Source: Chloroflexus sp. (lineage in GTDB: Bacteria > Chloroflexota > Anaerolineae > Anaerolineales > Villigracilaceae). Taken from it: DNA of 64,000 nucleotides. The notes below the pieces were generated by a model. That model saw only the letters and a list, made by a program, of their open reading frames with translations, was not told the origin of the DNA and did not search any database. This document shows, piece after piece, positions 1,270 through 57,541 of this stretch (position 1 is its first letter; each line of letters starts with the position of its first letter). The stretch is taken from contig DYHT01000002.1 of the NCBI GenBank assembly GCA_020723995.1, positions 1 to 64,000 of the forward strand, given 5' to 3'. Made by a program: the position numbers and the translations under genes.

Positions 1270-3480
1270 ATGACAAAACATCATGAACTCGAATCTTTCT
1301 ACAAAGAAGCACAATCCGCGCTCAAAGCCAAAGACTACGACCGCGCCGCGGAGTTGCTCAAGCAAATCCTGAAAGCTGACGTGGAATACAAAAACGCCTC
1401 GCGCCTGCTGGCGCAGACGGTGAAACTCCGGCGGCGGCGCTGGCACAATGATGCGCGAATATGGGGCGGATTGGGCATATCGGCGCTGATTCTTGTGATC
1501 ATTCTGGCTTTCCCAAAAATCGAAACATTCTATGCCAGCCGCATTCCCCTCAACCCAACGGCGACATCGAGACCAACCAGCACAGCAATACCGACCATCA
1601 CACCCACTCCCACCCCAACACCCATCCCGCTGGTCTGGAAGCGGATTTACATCGGGCAGGAGTTTCTTCGAGATAAAATCACTGCCATCGCCGCAAACCC
1701 CAAGGACAAAGATGTTATATATGTTGGAACCGCCAACGCGGGGATTTACAAAACCATTGACGGCGGCTTGTCATGGTCGCCGGCATTCAATGGAATAGAT
1801 TACCCAAAAACAGATAGTCTTCTGATTGATCCACACAATCCGAGCATCCTTTATGCCGCCACGGATCAAGGCGCATATAAAACCGATGACGGGGGACAGA
1901 ATTGGCGAATGGTAAAATCAGATCCCGCACAGTATATCGCCATGGATCCCCAAAACAGTACCCATCTGTACTTTTATGCTCCGGGGTGGGTCTTTGAATC
2001 AAGGGACAGCGGTGAGACGCTAACTAATAATTATTTTTCATCCTCCGGTGATAAGTGCCCGAACGGTTGGTATACCCTTGCCATCCATCCACTGGATGGC
2101 AATACTCTTTATACAGTTGAAATCAGATGGGGCTTTTGCGAGCCTGGCGTCTATCAGTCAAACGACGCAGGAAGAACGTGGGATTTGATAGGCCTGGGAG
2201 GCATTGGAGATTTGCACAGAATTACTGCAGGAACCGATTTCAATGGAAACGTAGTGCTTTACGTTGAATCCGAAAGCGGAAGCACCTATATCTCATACAT
2301 CTCATATGATGGGGGCCAGACATGGGACACAATGGATTTTGGATGTAACCTATTCACCATTGATCCCCAAACGCCCACAAAGGTTTATTGTAATGAAAAT
2401 GGTCTGACTTTCTCTGAGGACGGAGGACATTCCTGGCAATCAATATCCATTTCCGCGAATAATATTTCGGCGATTGGCATTGATTCCTCCAGCGCAAATC
2501 CTCGGCTGATGGTAGGTGAGAATAGTCTCTTTGTTTCACCCGACCTCGGTGTCACGTGGTCAGAGTTAGCCAATGGACTTGGGGGCAGTAAGGTGTCTAT
2601 CAAGATCAATCTTGTTGATCCATCGAACATGTATGTGATTGTATTTCCAGAGACACGGCCATCCTATTGCAGTCTGTATCGGTCGCTCGACCGTGGAAAG
2701 AGCTGGACGTATGTATTTGATATTCAGGATTGTGTCCCCTCCTTTGACAAAGGCGGAAAGTTCTATGTTGTCAAAGACGGTCAATTCGTGATGTCCGCAG
2801 ATAAAGGCATGACGTGGTCGGATATCAATCCACCACAGGATCAATTCCAAACTGCCATTATTAATCCGAGTATCCCCGGTCTTGCATACTGGATATTGGA
2901 ACAAGCAAAAGGGTTGATAGTCCGTTATTCAACCGATTACGGCCAATCCTGGTCAGTCAGCGACGGGATTCCATCAGAGGTTATGGTATGTGGGGTTACT
3001 CATCGGCTGTTCTTCAGCAATGATGGAAACACAGTCTACTTGAATACCTGCAATTGGATGCTTTCCTCAATAGATGCGGGAAAAACCTGGGAGTACGGGG
3101 GAATGGAATTCTCCGTCGCAGGAGTTGAAGAACGCCTTGCTGTCAATCCACAGGATGGCAATCTTTTCTATATGGGAAAAGGGGAAAGGGATGGTGGCAT
3201 TTGTACATGTAGGCTTGTAGACAACTACAGAATCAGCACAACGACATGCAAACTAGAGAACACCCATGTAAACAGCATCGCTATTGATCCCAATAATCCT
3301 GACACTATCTACGTTGGCGCAGATAGTGGTGCGTACGTCTCCTTCGATGGCGGCCAAACCTGGGGACAGATCAACGACGGCCTGCTCGGCGCGACGGTGG
3401 TCTATTCGATTGTCGTGGACAAGGAGGGCAATGTCTACGCCGCGACGCCGTATGGGATTTTCAAACTGGAGGGCAAGTAA
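1270..3480 (+). CDS. Membrane-anchored Asp-box (BNR/VPS10-like) repeat protein
   Basis: 736 residues. Residues 1-60 are charged and TPR-like (a helix pair ending in a KLRRRRW stop-transfer motif). One membrane helix follows at about 66-84, then a Thr/Pro-rich linker at about 95-121. The remainder is an external beta-propeller region with about twelve Asp-boxes (TIDGGLSW, TDDGGQNW, SNDAGRTW, SYDGGQTW, SADKGMTW, SFDGGQTW and others). The topology is inside N-terminus, outside propeller. The C-terminal 50 residues nearly duplicate those of the preceding gene, so the two are tandem paralogues. The stop overlaps the start of the next gene by one base (TAATG), which suggests translational coupling to the ATPase. 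The ligand is unknown, and no glycosidase active site was recognised. Confidence 0.85.
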   Translation: MTKHHELESFYKEAQSALKAKDYDRAAELLKQILKADVEYKNASRLLAQTVKLRRRRWHNDARIWGGLGISALILVIILAFPKIETFYASRIPLNPTATSRPTSTAIPTITPTPTPTPIPLVWKRIYIGQEFLRDKITAIAANPKDKDVIYVGTANAGIYKTIDGGLSWSPAFNGIDYPKTDSLLIDPHNPSILYAATDQGAYKTDDGGQNWRMVKSDPAQYIAMDPQNSTHLYFYAPGWVFESRDSGETLTNNYFSSSGDKCPNGWYTLAIHPLDGNTLYTVEIRWGFCEPGVYQSNDAGRTWDLIGLGGIGDLHRITAGTDFNGNVVLYVESESGSTYISYISYDGGQTWDTMDFGCNLFTIDPQTPTKVYCNENGLTFSEDGGHSWQSISISANNISAIGIDSSSANPRLMVGENSLFVSPDLGVTWSELANGLGGSKVSIKINLVDPSNMYVIVFPETRPSYCSLYRSLDRGKSWTYVFDIQDCVPSFDKGGKFYVVKDGQFVMSADKGMTWSDINPPQDQFQTAIINPSIPGLAYWILEQAKGLIVRYSTDYGQSWSVSDGIPSEVMVCGVTHRLFFSNDGNTVYLNTCNWMLSSIDAGKTWEYGGMEFSVAGVEERLAVNPQDGNLFYMGKGERDGGICTCRLVDNYRISTTTCKLENTHVNSIAIDPNNPDTIYVGADSGAYVSFDGGQTWGQINDGLLGATVVYSIVVDKEGNVYAATPYGIFKLEGK

Positions 3481-17023: not shown

Positions 17024-18018
17024 ATAGGAAATTTCGCTTGATCGCGCTGCTGGTCATCGTGGCGCTGCTTATAACAGCCTGCGAAATAATTGCAACACCT
17101 ACCCAAGTTGAGGAGGCCCAACCAGAGCAGGATGATACCGTCGAGTCATCCCCAATCACGCCATCCAATACGTCCACGGAAACACCCACACTCACACCTA
17201 CCGCAACCTTCACGCCCACACCGCAGTCAACCCAAGGTTCAGCCGCCGTCGGCCCAGACCCAGACGATTTCCCGGCTGGATTCAACCCGTTGACCGGTCA
17301 ACTGGCTGGCGACCCGAACTTGCTGAACCTGCCAGCGATCCTGATCTCGATCACCAACTTCCCACCCTCGGCGCGTCCGCAGGCCGGGCTTTCCTTCGCG
17401 CCGATGATCTTCGAGATCTACATCAGCGAAGGCATGACCCGCTTCCTGGTCGCTTTCTACGGGAAAGAGCCAAGAACCGAAGAGAGAATCACGGGAAATT
17501 GCGCAGAAAGGGAAGAGCCTTTCGAGGCAGCCGATATTGTCTTAGGCAACCTCGTCTGGCTGGATGAGAATTTCAACGGAACTCAAGACCCGGAAGAGCC
17601 GGGAGTGGGTGGCGTCTGCGTCACGCTCTACGACGCCGCTGGCAATATCCTCCAGACCACATTCACCGATTCCAACGGCTACTACGGCTTCAACGTCAGC
17701 CCTGGCGACTATGTGCTTGGGTTCAACGAAACAGCCTCACTGGCGTTCACGGCCCAGGATGTCGGTTTCGATGATTTCGACAGCGACGCTGACCCGCTGA
17801 CCGGCAAGACGCCCAACATCACGGTCAATGCGGCCGAGACGAAGATGCGCCAACTCGCCGAGGCTCAGAGGGCCAAGAATCCCGGCCAGGCGCTGAATTA
17901 TTCCGGCAACGTTTTCTCGGAACAGCCACCCCCCGGAGGGCTGAATGCGCAAGAGTTGAGAGTGTTCTACCAGGCAATTGCCGGCTGGATCGAAGTAGGA
18001 GTGATACGTGAAGCGTGA
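17020..18018 (+). CDS. Lipoprotein, DUF3048 pieces with an inserted SdrD-B domain, damaged
   Basis: Read from ATA at 17020 the protein opens with NRKFR, a hydrophobic core and the lipobox LITAC, so it is a lipoprotein. The ATA follows GGAGG and occupies the place where an ATGA stop/start overlap with the HIT gene would be expected, so it is either a rare AUA start or a mutated ATG; the first standard start is TTG at 17038. After a Thr/Pro-rich linker come the N-terminal motifs of DUF3048 (FNPLTGQLAGDP; ARPQAGLSFAPMIFE). An SdrD-B-type domain follows (GNLVWLDENFNGTQDPEEPG to the GYYGF motif), then a short later piece of DUF3048 (VFSEQPPPGG, LRVFY). The core between these is missing. The last residues and the stop come from the satellite at 18001-18044. 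Probably an internally deleted, truncated gene. Confidence 0.65.
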   Translation: MNRKFRLIALLVIVALLITACEIIATPTQVEEAQPEQDDTVESSPITPSNTSTETPTLTPTATFTPTPQSTQGSAAVGPDPDDFPAGFNPLTGQLAGDPNLLNLPAILISITNFPPSARPQAGLSFAPMIFEIYISEGMTRFLVAFYGKEPRTEERITGNCAEREEPFEAADIVLGNLVWLDENFNGTQDPEEPGVGGVCVTLYDAAGNILQTTFTDSNGYYGFNVSPGDYVLGFNETASLAFTAQDVGFDDFDSDADPLTGKTPNITVNAAETKMRQLAEAQRAKNPGQALNYSGNVFSEQPPPGGLNAQELRVFYQAIAGWIEVGVIREA

Positions 18019-18044
18019 CGAGTGATGAGTGAGGAGTGAGGAGG
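18001..18044. repeat. Left satellite arm (GAGTGATGA unit) before the four-helix-bundle gene
   Basis: The run GTGATACGTGAAGCGTGACG, then GAGTGATGAGTGAGGAGTGA, repeats a GAGTGAT/GAGTGAG unit. It is inverted relative to the arm at 18556-18606, so the two enclose one gene. It supplies the stop codon of the upstream lipoprotein and the GGAGG ribosome binding site of the enclosed gene. Confidence 0.8.
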
Positions 18045-18051
18045 ATGGTTT

Positions 18052-18555
18052 ATGAATTTTGAGGAGTGGGTGAAAGATGTTCCTGAGGAAATTTCAAGCG
18101 ATTCGCTATGGAAGGTTGAGGCCTACCGCCTGGGACTCTTTGTCGCCGATATTGGCTGGCACGATGTTACAAAACTCATCGGTGATAAACGCACCAGCAG
18201 TCTGGCGGATCAACTCTATTGTTCTCTTGGTTCTATCAGTGCGAATGTTGCCGAAGGATTTTTGCGAATCTCGCACAAAGAAAAAGCACACTTTTATGAA
18301 TATGCTCTCGGTTCGGCGCGCGAAAGCCGCGACTGGTATTTTAAAGCGCGCCACGTTCTTGACAAACAAGTGACAGAGCACCGAATTCGCCTTCTAACGC
18401 AAATCATCCGCCTGCTCATTACCATGATTCCACAGCAACGTAAACATGGCCTTATTCGAGAAGAGCAAGCGCCCTATTTAGTTACACCCGATGACACCAT
18501 TCCCCCAGACGCCAACATCCTCAACGCTCTCCTCCAAAACGTCCCTCCGCCTTAA
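18052..18555 (+). CDS. Four-helix bundle protein (S23/IVP family)
   Basis: 167 residues. The sequence LWKVEAYRLGLFVADIGWHD, the central SLGSISANVAEGF motif and FYEYALGSARESRDWYFKA are diagnostic of the four-helix bundle family first seen in 23S rRNA intervening sequences and related to the Avd protein of diversity-generating retroelements. Its biochemical role is not known. The gene lies exactly between two inverted satellite arms (18001-18044 and 18556-18606), with the right arm beginning right after the stop codon. No reverse transcriptase or rRNA gene is near. It interrupts the end of the DUF3048 gene, so the unit may be a mobile cassette (inference). Confidence 0.92.
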   Translation: MNFEEWVKDVPEEISSDSLWKVEAYRLGLFVADIGWHDVTKLIGDKRTSSLADQLYCSLGSISANVAEGFLRISHKEKAHFYEYALGSARESRDWYFKARHVLDKQVTEHRIRLLTQIIRLLITMIPQQRKHGLIREEQAPYLVTPDDTIPPDANILNALLQNVPPP

Positions 18556-18606
18556 GACATCACTCATCACTTATCACTTATCACTTATCACTCATCACTC
18601 ATCACT
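18556..18606. repeat. Right satellite arm (ATCACT unit) after the four-helix-bundle gene
   Basis: The sequence repeats CATCACT and TATCACT about seven times. Its complement reads GAGTGATGAGTGATAAGTGA, matching the unit of the left arm in inverted orientation. It starts directly at the stop codon of the four-helix bundle gene. Confidence 0.82.
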
Positions 18607-18629: not shown

Positions 18630-19829
18630 ATGGCTCAGAATCAACAAGAAGCAATAATCCTCAGCGCCTGCCGCACACCGAGCGGAAAGTTCCAAGGCAG
18701 CCTGTCCAGTTTCAGCGCGCCGAAGCTGGGGGCGATGGTCATCAAGGCGGCCGTCGAGCGCGCCGGGGTCAATCCCGCTGACATTGACGAAGCCTTTATG
18801 GGTAACGTTGTCTCGGCCGGATTGGGACAGGCTCCGGCACGCCAGGCCGTCATCCACGCCGGGCTGCCGTCCTCGGTCGGGGCGACCACGCTGAACAAGG
18901 TCTGCGGCTCGGGGCTGAAAGCGGCCATGCTGGCCGCGACGGCTATCAAAGCCGGGGAGGGACAGTTATTTGTCGCAGGCGGATTCGAGTCGATGAGCGG
19001 CGCGCCGTATCTGGTCCGCGGCCGCTCGGGCGAACTGCGTTTCGGCCATCAGCAATTGACCGACGCCCTGCTCTACGATGGATTGTGGTGCTCGCTGGCC
19101 AATTGGGGCATGGGCGACGCGGCCGAATTCATCGCCAGCGAATACAACGTCACCCGCGAGGCAATGGATAAGTTTTCTTATGAGAGCCACCAGAAGGCTC
19201 TCGCCGCCAGCGACAGCGGCAGATTCAAGGCTGAAATCACGCCGGTGGAACTGGTCAGCAAGAAAGGCACCACCATCTTCGACACCGACGAGGCGCCGCG
19301 CCGCGATACCACGCTGGAAGGACTGGCTGCGTTGAAACCAGCTTTTCAGAAAGACGGCAAAGTGACGGCCGGCAATGCCCCCGGCCTGAACGACGGCGCG
19401 GCGGCTGTGGTCGTCGCCAGCCGCGAGTACGCCGAGAAGAATGGCTTGCAGCCCCTGGCACGAATTATCGGCTATGCGCAGGCCGCCGACGAGCCGAAGT
19501 ACCTCTTCCGCGCCCCGGCTTTCGCCATCCCCAAACTGCTCAAGCAAATTGGCTGGACACTGAAGGATGTAGACCTGATTGAACTCAACGAAGCCTTCGC
19601 CGCCCAGGTGCTGGCGGATGGCTGCATTCTTGAGAAAGATGGCTGGGATTGGAGCAAAGTCAACGTCAATGGCGGCGCGGTGGCGCTCGGACATCCCATC
19701 GGAGCATCCGGTGCGCGCATCCTGACCACGCTCATTTATGCCCTCAAGGATCGCGGCCTGAAGCGCGGGGTTGCTTCCCTTTGCTTGGGCGGGGCGGAAG
19801 CCGTGGCCATGGCTGTGGAAGTCGAATAG
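18630..19829 (+). CDS. Acetyl-CoA acetyltransferase (thiolase)
   Basis: 399 residues, the usual thiolase length. The nucleophilic Cys lies in LNKVCGSGLKA, the His in GGAVALGHPIGASGAR, and the second Cys in SLCLGGAEAVAMAVE. It interconverts two acetyl-CoA and acetoacetyl-CoA, or cleaves 3-ketoacyl-CoA. The ATG at 18630 follows AAAGGAG. It is followed by 3-hydroxyacyl-CoA dehydrogenase, so the pair could work in butyrate-type metabolism or in degradation. The gap to that gene is a hairpin satellite. Confidence 0.94.
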   Translation: MAQNQQEAIILSACRTPSGKFQGSLSSFSAPKLGAMVIKAAVERAGVNPADIDEAFMGNVVSAGLGQAPARQAVIHAGLPSSVGATTLNKVCGSGLKAAMLAATAIKAGEGQLFVAGGFESMSGAPYLVRGRSGELRFGHQQLTDALLYDGLWCSLANWGMGDAAEFIASEYNVTREAMDKFSYESHQKALAASDSGRFKAEITPVELVSKKGTTIFDTDEAPRRDTTLEGLAALKPAFQKDGKVTAGNAPGLNDGAAAVVVASREYAEKNGLQPLARIIGYAQAADEPKYLFRAPAFAIPKLLKQIGWTLKDVDLIELNEAFAAQVLADGCILEKDGWDWSKVNVNGGAVALGHPIGASGARILTTLIYALKDRGLKRGVASLCLGGAEAVAMAVEVE

Positions 19830-19904
19830 GCAGGTAAACAGGTAAACAGGTAGACAGGTACATGTATACTTGTTTACTTGTTTACTTGTTTACCTATCTA
19901 CCTA
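19830..19904. repeat. Inverted satellite hairpin (GGTAAACA / TGTTTACC)
   Basis: The left arm (19831-19860) repeats CAGGTAAA and the right arm (19865-19904) repeats ACTTGTTT, ending in ACCTATCTACCT. The two are complementary over nearly their whole length and meet in a short centre, so the RNA would form a long imperfect hairpin. It begins right after the thiolase stop and ends just before the ribosome binding site of the next gene. No gene lies between the arms. Confidence 0.85.
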
Positions 19905-56966: not shown

Positions 56967-56982
56967 AGTGTTTCTCCTTGTT

Positions 56983-57021
56983 GTACACGGATGACACGGA
57001 TTTCACTGATAAGCACGGATT
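56983..57021. repeat. Left satellite arm (CACGGAT unit) of the GxxExxY cassette
   Basis: GTACACGGATGACACGGATT, then TCACTGATAAGCACGGATT. The outer ten bases GTACACGGAT are perfectly inverted at 57528-57537. The arm ends seven bases before the GxxExxY stop codon. Confidence 0.85.
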
Positions 57022-57028
57022 ATTTCTT

Positions 57029-57469
57029 TTACTTCTTCGTCCAGCGCAGGGAGCCCTTGTGCTCGTTGTCGTAGATTTTGCGTTTGAGGGTTGCTGACTT
57101 CCCAAAGTTAAGTACATAACCAACTTCGATTTCGGTGGTCTTGAGATAGTTGAGCAATTGAGCTTCATGTTCATCAACGATGGAGTCAACGGATTTCAAT
57201 TCCAACAAGATGACATCGTTGACGACCATATCAGCGAAAAACTCACCTACAACCTGGCCGTGATAGTAAACCTTGATGGCAACCTGCTCATCCACTTTGA
57301 AGCCAGACTCACGCAAGGCAATGGCAAACGCTTTCTGATACACCTTTTCACTGAAACCAAATCCGAGTTCGTTATGCACCTGATAGAACATGTTGATAAT
57401 CGTCTCACTCAGGTCGGCATACTTGCCCTCGAATGGCTTTTTCGGTGTCATATCTCTGCGAGCCTGCAT
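57029..57469 (-). CDS. GxxExxY family protein
   Basis: 146 residues. The motif GFSEKVYQKAFAIALRESG carries the G-x-x-E-x-x-Y pattern that names the family; the later GEFFADMVVNDVILLELKSV resembles the core of PD-(D/E)XK nucleases (D ... E-x-K). The function is unknown. The start at 57469 follows GGAGG. The gene lies within a unit bounded by inverted satellite arms at 56983 and 57537, inside the beta-oxidation operon and in the same direction, so it may be read through by that operon. Confidence 0.93.
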   Translation of the reverse strand: MQARRDMTPKKPFEGKYADLSETIINMFYQVHNELGFGFSEKVYQKAFAIALRESGFKVDEQVAIKVYYHGQVVGEFFADMVVNDVILLELKSVDSIVDEHEAQLLNYLKTTEIEVGYVLNFGKSATLKRKIYDNEHKGSLRWTKK

Positions 57470-57497: not shown

Positions 57498-57537
57498 AAA
57501 TCCGTGTGACTCCGTGTAATCCGTGCAATCCGTGTAC
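57498..57537. repeat. Right satellite arm (ATCCGTG unit) of the GxxExxY cassette
   Basis: AAATCCGTGTGACTCCGTGT, then AATCCGTGCAATCCGTGTAC. The end ATCCGTGTAC is the exact inverse of the other boundary. It lies four bases before the fadN stop. Confidence 0.85.
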
Positions 57538-57541
57538 AGGT

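Follow-up and report, generated by a model that had tools for sequence, protein, structure and literature searches.

The proteins of the S23/IVP family are widely annotated with no ligand assigned to them, and heptamer arrays have so far had no partner protein. A described setting of S23 genes is the 23S rRNA IVS of Leptospira and Coxiella, in which terminal inverted repeats enclose, as a loop, an ORF of the same protein family, with sporadic presence; in Coxiella the repeat measures 28 bp and is cut by RNase III (PMC4990558). 23S_rRNA_IVP genes have also been found in cas loci (PMC3936711), and one family member, Xcc0516 (2gsc), is referred to in the same paper, through its ref. 48, as five four-helix bundles joined in one assembly. 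Partnerships between a gene and a repeat are known from the RAYTs, single-copy and mutually distinct genes with inverted REP pairs, for which co-evolution has been proposed (PMC3116915), while the homing of diversity-generating retroelements (DGRs) needs a hairpin or cruciform in the target (PMC3240598).

The locus described here lies in the window, the whole 64,000-nt stretch of Chloroflexus sp. DNA that was analysed, and consists of an S23 gene between two short-period arrays, with its neighbours on the same strand:

17038..18018, + strand: truncated DUF3048/SdrD_B lipoprotein gene, with about 135 C-terminal residues of the version in sister species G002 missing
18001..18047, + strand: left arm, a degenerate heptamer array (GAGTGATGAGTGA...) holding the likely Shine-Dalgarno sequence and the stop codon of the truncated DUF3048 frame
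18052..18555, + strand: S23 / four-helix-bundle gene, 167 aa, with PF05635 and TIGR02436 profile matches
18558..18606, + strand: right arm, CATCACT x7, the reverse complement of the left arm unit
18630..19829, + strand: acetyl-CoA acetyltransferase (thiolase) gene, the co-directional downstream neighbour of S23

The encoded protein matched PF05635 (E 4e-13, 50 bits, cut-off 33.8) and TIGR02436 (57 bits, cut-off 24). The left array is of the GAGTGATGA type with a period of 7, the right array has 95% matches across its seven CATCACT units, and the heptamer is common to both in opposite orientation. As the first-pass annotation had claimed, the right array starts practically at the stop codon, 2 nt past the TAA of S23, and the left array appears to supply the ribosome binding site, GGAGG at 18040-18044, 7 nt before the ATG, being the likely Shine-Dalgarno sequence of the gene. 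The framing by opposite arrays, claimed there as well, is borne out by the arm score, for which the upstream sequence was aligned with the reverse complement of the downstream sequence and compared with 200 dinucleotide shuffles: the S23 gene scored 41 (z 10.6), above 200/200 shuffles. Only two of the 64 window genes reached a score of at least 28, namely S23 and the GxxExxY gene at 57029-57469 (43); the other 62 stayed at 21 or below, none at the armed level. Between the arms, the S23 ORF was the sole recognised gene and PF05635 the sole Pfam domain, with no transposase, and in the predicted minimum-free-energy RNA fold of the locus the two arms pair with each other (z -3.26). The gene showed a dN/dS of 0.11 against L021. 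As a side observation, a short C-terminal tail motif, roughly [RHKS]..E[ED]...Y, occurred in 54 of 106 S23 proteins when searched as a loose pattern; it lies outside the Pfam domain, at about residues 140-150 of the window protein, and is possibly a partner-binding peptide.

The cassette was also said to sit at the damaged 3' end of a DUF3048 gene, and comparison with congeners agrees. The window DUF3048 frame breaks right after ELRVFY and reaches its stop (18016-18018) inside the left array, whereas in the sister species G002 (L035) the same gene runs about 135 residues beyond ELRVFY and ends shortly before a thiolase gene whose product is 91% identical to that of the window, with no S23 gene between. 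The site is therefore occupied in the window species and empty in its congener; where it is occupied, part of the host gene is missing. In relatives the thiolase gene directly follows either an intact DUF3048 gene or a HIT gene, the latter in G028 and G006, which hold neither DUF3048 nor S23 between HIT and thiolase; since most of the genomes compared are MAGs, genes absent from them may be assembly gaps. The window lipoprotein itself has an inserted SdrD_B domain and also lacks an internal stretch of the G002 copy.

Far from being rare in the family, as would have spoken against the first-pass annotation, inverted short-period arrays at both ends proved general for S23 genes. The genome of the window contains 10 TIGR02436 matches and three congeners hold more; by inspection, most intact S23 loci of these genomes carry matched inverted arrays with units differing from locus to locus. 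Arms scoring above all 200 dinucleotide shuffles were found at 72 of 103 S23 genes of Chloroflexota, and above all 100 shuffles at 49 of 80 named loci from many phyla (Cyanobacteria, Acidobacteria, Nitrospirota, Bacteroidetes, Verrucomicrobia, Planctomycetes, Poribacteria, Spirochaetes, Proteobacteria, CPR and others, Chloroflexota included); in about 30% of S23 genes the arms did not exceed shuffles. Loci were selected on their top HMM or BLAST score, so that intact copies may be over-represented. In the 72 armed Chloroflexota genes, the right arm starts a median of 2 nt past the stop codon, and the median distance from the end of the left arm to the start codon is 23 nt. In 864 kb of sequence sampled as 20-kb stretches, the single genes framed by arrays were almost only S23 and GxxExxY genes, the exceptions including a hypF fragment and a queA gene. 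At L169 (12956-13610), part of a hypF-like gene lies between inverted 8-mer arrays, and the reading frame of this gene passes through a heptamer array (IHPSSFILHPSSFIL).

Searches of plasmids with the window S23 protein gave no match, and those of phages two weak partial S23 matches only; the TCAGC subfamily, for its part, is present on cyanobacterial plasmids. On the Pseudanabaena galeata plasmid pPg_01 (L438, 1501-1860), an S23 gene lies between cas6 and cas4, in agreement with the published occurrence in cas loci, and its arrays, of a GCTAAAA-like unit, are apparently direct rather than inverted.

The arms had been regarded as one satellite, and on this point the first-pass annotation is to be corrected: the unit is specific to the protein subfamily. 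In each pair of S23 genes that we compared, one gene contributed its upstream arm and the other its downstream arm, which keeps any host flank in common out of the score; unit similarity followed protein similarity (Mantel r 0.394; none of 2000 permutations reached this value, the highest giving 0.113). In a tree of 105 S23 proteins, clades share arm units: AGAGANN (L001, L103, L106, L205, L220), TTCGATA (six copies at pheST), GGTTGAA (L003, L013, L196, L198, L216), GTAGTTAG (L206, L208, L209, L213, L218), ATGGATA (L187, L193, L219) and AGTGATC (L186, L188, L199), with further unit-sharing clades besides these. Pairs of proteins less than 50% identical almost never share a unit, whereas about three quarters of those at least 70% identical do. 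Part of this linkage reflects the common descent of gene and flank, as 34 of the 43 close pairs occupy the same site; at different insertion sites, however, the unit was still shared in 8 of 9 pairs, with a mean cross-arm score of 43.9 against a baseline of 14.7. Many unit-sharing pairs are moreover saturated at synonymous sites (e.g., L186/L188, dS 3.0, cross-arm score 61.5), so that either conservation of the arms exceeds what neutrality predicts or some active process keeps them similar.

The construction of the unit is best seen in the TCAGCNN arms, which come from several phyla. TCAGC recurs at a spacing of exactly 7 in 25 of 80 upstream and 21 of 80 downstream arms, other spacings in 0-3; the core shows 0-25% mismatch per position and the two spacer positions are mixed. 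By inspection, AGAGANN, AGGTTNN and ACAGGTAN have a similar appearance, and, to judge from these sequences, the units look like a fixed core with a variable spacer, as would be expected of a repeated binding motif. Exact pairing of one arm with the other shows no sign of being a conserved property, since the match within a locus (37.5) was not better than that between relatives (36.0, p 0.09); base-by-base pairing as the conserved trait found no support here, nor did the spacers show detectable pairing (4 loci usable). With the repeat unit depending on the protein subfamily across bacterial phyla, the S23 gene and its own repeats look like a widespread protein-repeat partnership rather than a local oddity, and apparently an undescribed one, as our search of the open-access literature turned up no account of S23 genes accompanied by cognate arrays.

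Gene and arms appear to move together. At the pheS-pheT junction, an armed S23 gene is present in 8 of 29 readable loci and a tight junction of about 10 nt in 10 of 29, the remaining loci holding gene-less arrays or other short insertions; here, as between DUF3048 and thiolase, both occupied and empty sites exist, in line with the mobility proposed at the outset. AGAGANN cassettes occur between pheS and pheT (L001, L103, L106) and, again with AGAGA arms, before a dehydrogenase-like gene (L205 and L220, in G030 and G007), from which it follows that gene and arms moved as a pair. The view that the S23 genes of pheST descend vertically from one insertion was not upheld, as 4 changes are required on the tree (bootstrap range 3-4) and the AGAGANN copies from the other site nest among the pheST genes. 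A reading of the feoB cassette as interrupting a gene was likewise rejected: most relatives searched have the feoB C-part as an ORF of its own, of comparable length, so the cassette sits at a natural junction. At one such locus (L278 of G042, 1465-3261) the S23 ORF continues in frame across the right array and on into feoB-C, so that S23 and FeoB are fused in one frame of 598 aa; a stop is present at the orthologous site of G051 (L276).

Armed cassettes are placed co-directionally at operon junctions. With neighbours called by longest ORF, the upstream neighbour was co-directional in 53 of 54 callable cases against 355:165 in controls (p 1e-7), and the downstream neighbour in 41 of 48 (p 0.02). 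As the arms lie between the ORF and these neighbours, both are normally transcribed with the gene. The dN/dS of S23 in the pairs compared was 0.03-0.18, which indicates that strong purifying selection keeps the protein functional.

The dispersed part of the system is another matter. Within a genome, the median best identity of S23 proteins was 0.40, versus 0.75 between genomes; copies in one genome are thus distant from each other with close relatives elsewhere, which amounts to about one copy per subfamily per genome. Arrays with no gene of their own, by comparison, are common, and 17 of the 22 arrays in the window match arms of S23 genes in the same genome above shuffles, most of the others matching arms of congeners. 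Among those of the window are the following (no strand assigned), each with the S23 gene of the same genome that has the unit:

19831..19893: gene-less inverted array pair (CAGGTAAA / TTTACTTG), unit of L005
38886..38922: gene-less array, GCCATCA unit, that of L008
46012..46090: gene-less inverted arrays, GGTGTCA unit, of the subfamily of L004
52970..53028: gene-less inverted arrays, GAGAGTA unit, of L001
55628..55775: gene-less inverted arrays, TAGTCTGA unit, of L006
59961..60026: gene-less inverted arrays, GTGTCAAG unit, of L004
63576..63624: gene-less array, AGCCATC unit, of L008

Among 100 genomes of the family, at least 5 AGAGANN array matches were present in 5 of 6 genomes with a protein at least 70% identical and in 11 of 94 without one (p 3e-4); the association was weaker for TCAGCNN (p 0.012; Fisher 0.076). 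Four genomes of genus g3 (G042, G051, G059, G067) have many AGAGANN arrays and no L001-like S23 protein, and one possibility is that these orphan arrays persist after loss of the gene. In the pheS-pheT junction of G048 (L101), AGAGA-like repeats and the first S23 codons (ATGAGCGTTCAAGGTTTGAAGCGG) are followed by a stop, as read from the sequence, and this looks like a decayed cassette whose gene was likely lost. The same junction in G057 (L109) contains two gene-less inverted hairpin arrays of the ACCGCGAAGAGCGCGAAG type in tandem. Arm units are also gained or lost between the close relatives G042 and G051 (L264/L265, L269/L270). The proposed class of mobile units made of a small gene between arms accordingly stands in the sense that gene and arms are carried jointly from site to site and from genome to genome, by transposition or otherwise. 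The gene, on the other hand, is not multiplied within a genome, and the dispersed part consists of gene-less arrays.

A second family behaves in the same manner, as had been suggested for the GxxExxY unit of the window:

57029..57469, - strand: GxxExxY gene (TIGR04256; PF13366 PDDEXK_3), with inverted CACGGATNN arrays at 56982-57009 and 57511-57538

Matched inverted arms frame 15 of the 19 GxxExxY loci of the genus, with units of about 9 nt in the styles CACGGATNN, CACGAANNN and GCAAAGNNN; the protein belongs to the PD-(D/E)XK nuclease family (PF13366). A near-identical hairpin (CACGGATTTCACGGATTCACACGGAAAAA ... reverse complement) recurs in the genome of the window at L166 (7938-8012), L172 (19411-19485) and L174 (11157-11231) and is, on the face of its repeats, a MITE-like gene-less form of GxxExxY-type arms.

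The AlphaFold model of the window S23 protein (pLDDT 88) has the four-helix-bundle fold of the solved family members, its best matches being 2rld and 2gsc (TM, target, 0.83-0.89) and then Avd (4dwl/8ub7); both 2gsc and 2rld contain five chains. TRAP (trp RNA-binding attenuation protein) is a ring protein that binds a repeated short motif with 2-nt spacers, and its likeness to S23 serves here as a working idea only, the two proteins being unrelated. The five-bundle assembly of 2gsc, the five chains of 2rld, the Coxiella IVS and the need of DGRs for a hairpin lead us to prefer a model in which a ring protein binds the repeat of its own cassette, with RNA as the probable ligand, and travels with that repeat. 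The S23 protein would form a five-membered ring of helical bundles, with a fold related to the Avd ring, and would recognise its own repeat, perhaps with one protomer per unit; the ligand would be the transcript carrying both arms rather than DNA, and the complex might form on its own mRNA as well as on the scattered gene-less arrays of matching unit. Gene and arms would pass between sites and genomes as one unit, with a mobility enzyme probably supplied in trans, and the cassette could be lost again, leaving gene-less arrays behind. We regard this reading as a whole, namely a single-copy gene with subfamily-specific inverted repeats, whose Avd-like ring protein would bind these repeats, most likely on the transcript, while gene and arms spread jointly, as evenly balanced between being right and being wrong. 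Tentatively, and with more doubt than hope, we would go on to suggest an unrecognised class of non-enzymatic ring proteins with a subfamily-specific code for 7-9-nt core-and-spacer repeats, which spread with these repeats through operons in bacteria of many phyla and maintain or disseminate gene-less arrays in trans, with GxxExxY as a parallel second lineage.

Several other explanations deserve to be weighed. The arms could be the terminal inverted repeats of a selfish DNA element, read by a trans-acting recombinase, with S23 as an accessory and the gene-less arrays as MITE-like derivatives. Gene and arms at different sites, the occupied/empty polymorphism, the cognate units of gene-less inverted arrays and the occurrence in many phyla and on plasmids would all fit; nevertheless, the gene is not multiplied within genomes and is under strong purifying selection, the cassettes are strongly biased to co-direction, no target-site duplication was defined, and PF05635 is the only domain, with nothing transposase-like, so that we consider such an element unlikely. 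It is decidedly improbable, in our judgment, that arm pairing alone matters as in an rRNA IVS, RNase III excising S23 from a polycistronic mRNA and the repeat sequence being incidental: the Coxiella ORF within an RNase III-cut inverted repeat, the predicted pairing of the window arms and the position of cassettes inside operons suggest as much, but arms match no better within a locus than between relatives, units are tied to the protein subfamily, spacers vary with no pairing detectable in the 4 usable loci, and the arrays of the Pseudanabaena plasmid copy are apparently direct.

A neutral origin, by which inverted arrays arise through replication slippage and quasi-palindrome correction wherever an operon junction tolerates them, both gene families lying there by chance, would account for the gain and loss of units between G042 and G051 and for the abundance of gene-less arrays. 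We find it very improbable all the same, as arms are specific to two gene families, one unit goes with one subfamily in different phyla and sites, and arms outlast synonymous saturation. To a role in phage defence or as toxin-antitoxin, with the arrays as regulatory decoys, we attach next to no credence: S23-family genes do occur in cas loci (PMC3936711; L438 between cas6 and cas4) and GxxExxY does fall in the PDDEXK nuclease family, yet PADLOC gave no match and insertions are found in housekeeping operons too (pheST, feoB, thiolase).

The linkage offers a testable answer both for the ligand of S23 and for the partner of heptamer arrays, each S23 subfamily having its own repeat word, and it provides a simple computational rule for annotating cognate protein-repeat pairs. 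If binding is confirmed, it would account for a large part of the short-period repeats found between genes in Anaerolineae and in other phyla, the Avd fold would acquire a general function beyond retroelements, and S23 with its arrays would constitute a gene-repeat pair of the REP/RAYT kind that does without a transposase.

Set beside the known systems, the S23 cassettes depart from the 23S rRNA IVS in that the window cassette adjoins DUF3048 and thiolase genes and the armed cassettes lie at mRNA operon junctions, not in rRNA; they also differ in having subfamily-specific core-and-spacer arms, cognate gene-less arrays and purifying selection on the gene. Their resemblance to an autonomous IS or transposon in inverted repeats ends with the absence of a transposase between the window arms. 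With the Avd proteins of DGRs (4dwl, 8ub7) they have the fold in common, although the immediate neighbours (HIT, DUF3048, thiolase) include neither a reverse transcriptase nor template/variable repeats. The TAACTGA heptamer arrays of Beggiatoaceae are likewise intergenic, upstream of start codons and scattered over phyla, but are mostly direct, of one unit, and described with no link to S23 (PMC4679880). A further parallel is with the RAYTs and their REP/REPIN sequences, which S23 resembles in being single-copy per type, in the coexistence of distinct types within a genome, each with its own inverted repeat at the flanks, and in the covariation of gene and repeat. A likeness in the dispersal of cognate repeats as inverted pairs may exist as well, with 17 of the 22 window arrays and AGAGANN (p 3e-4) pointing to it, genus g3 as exception and a weaker signal for TCAGCNN. 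Unlike RAYTs, S23 proteins lack the HUH Y1 tyrosine transposase, having PF05635 alone and the S23/Avd fold, and unlike REPs, which are palindromes of about 20 nt, the repeats of S23 and GxxExxY are tandem arrays of 7-9 nt, with no transposition intermediate seen. Without a transposase and outside rRNA, the S23 cassettes are therefore filed in neither the RAYT nor the IVS family, and a REP/RAYT-like protein with cognate repeats and presumed mobility would seem, from what the sequences suggest, to describe them better than a simple cassette does.
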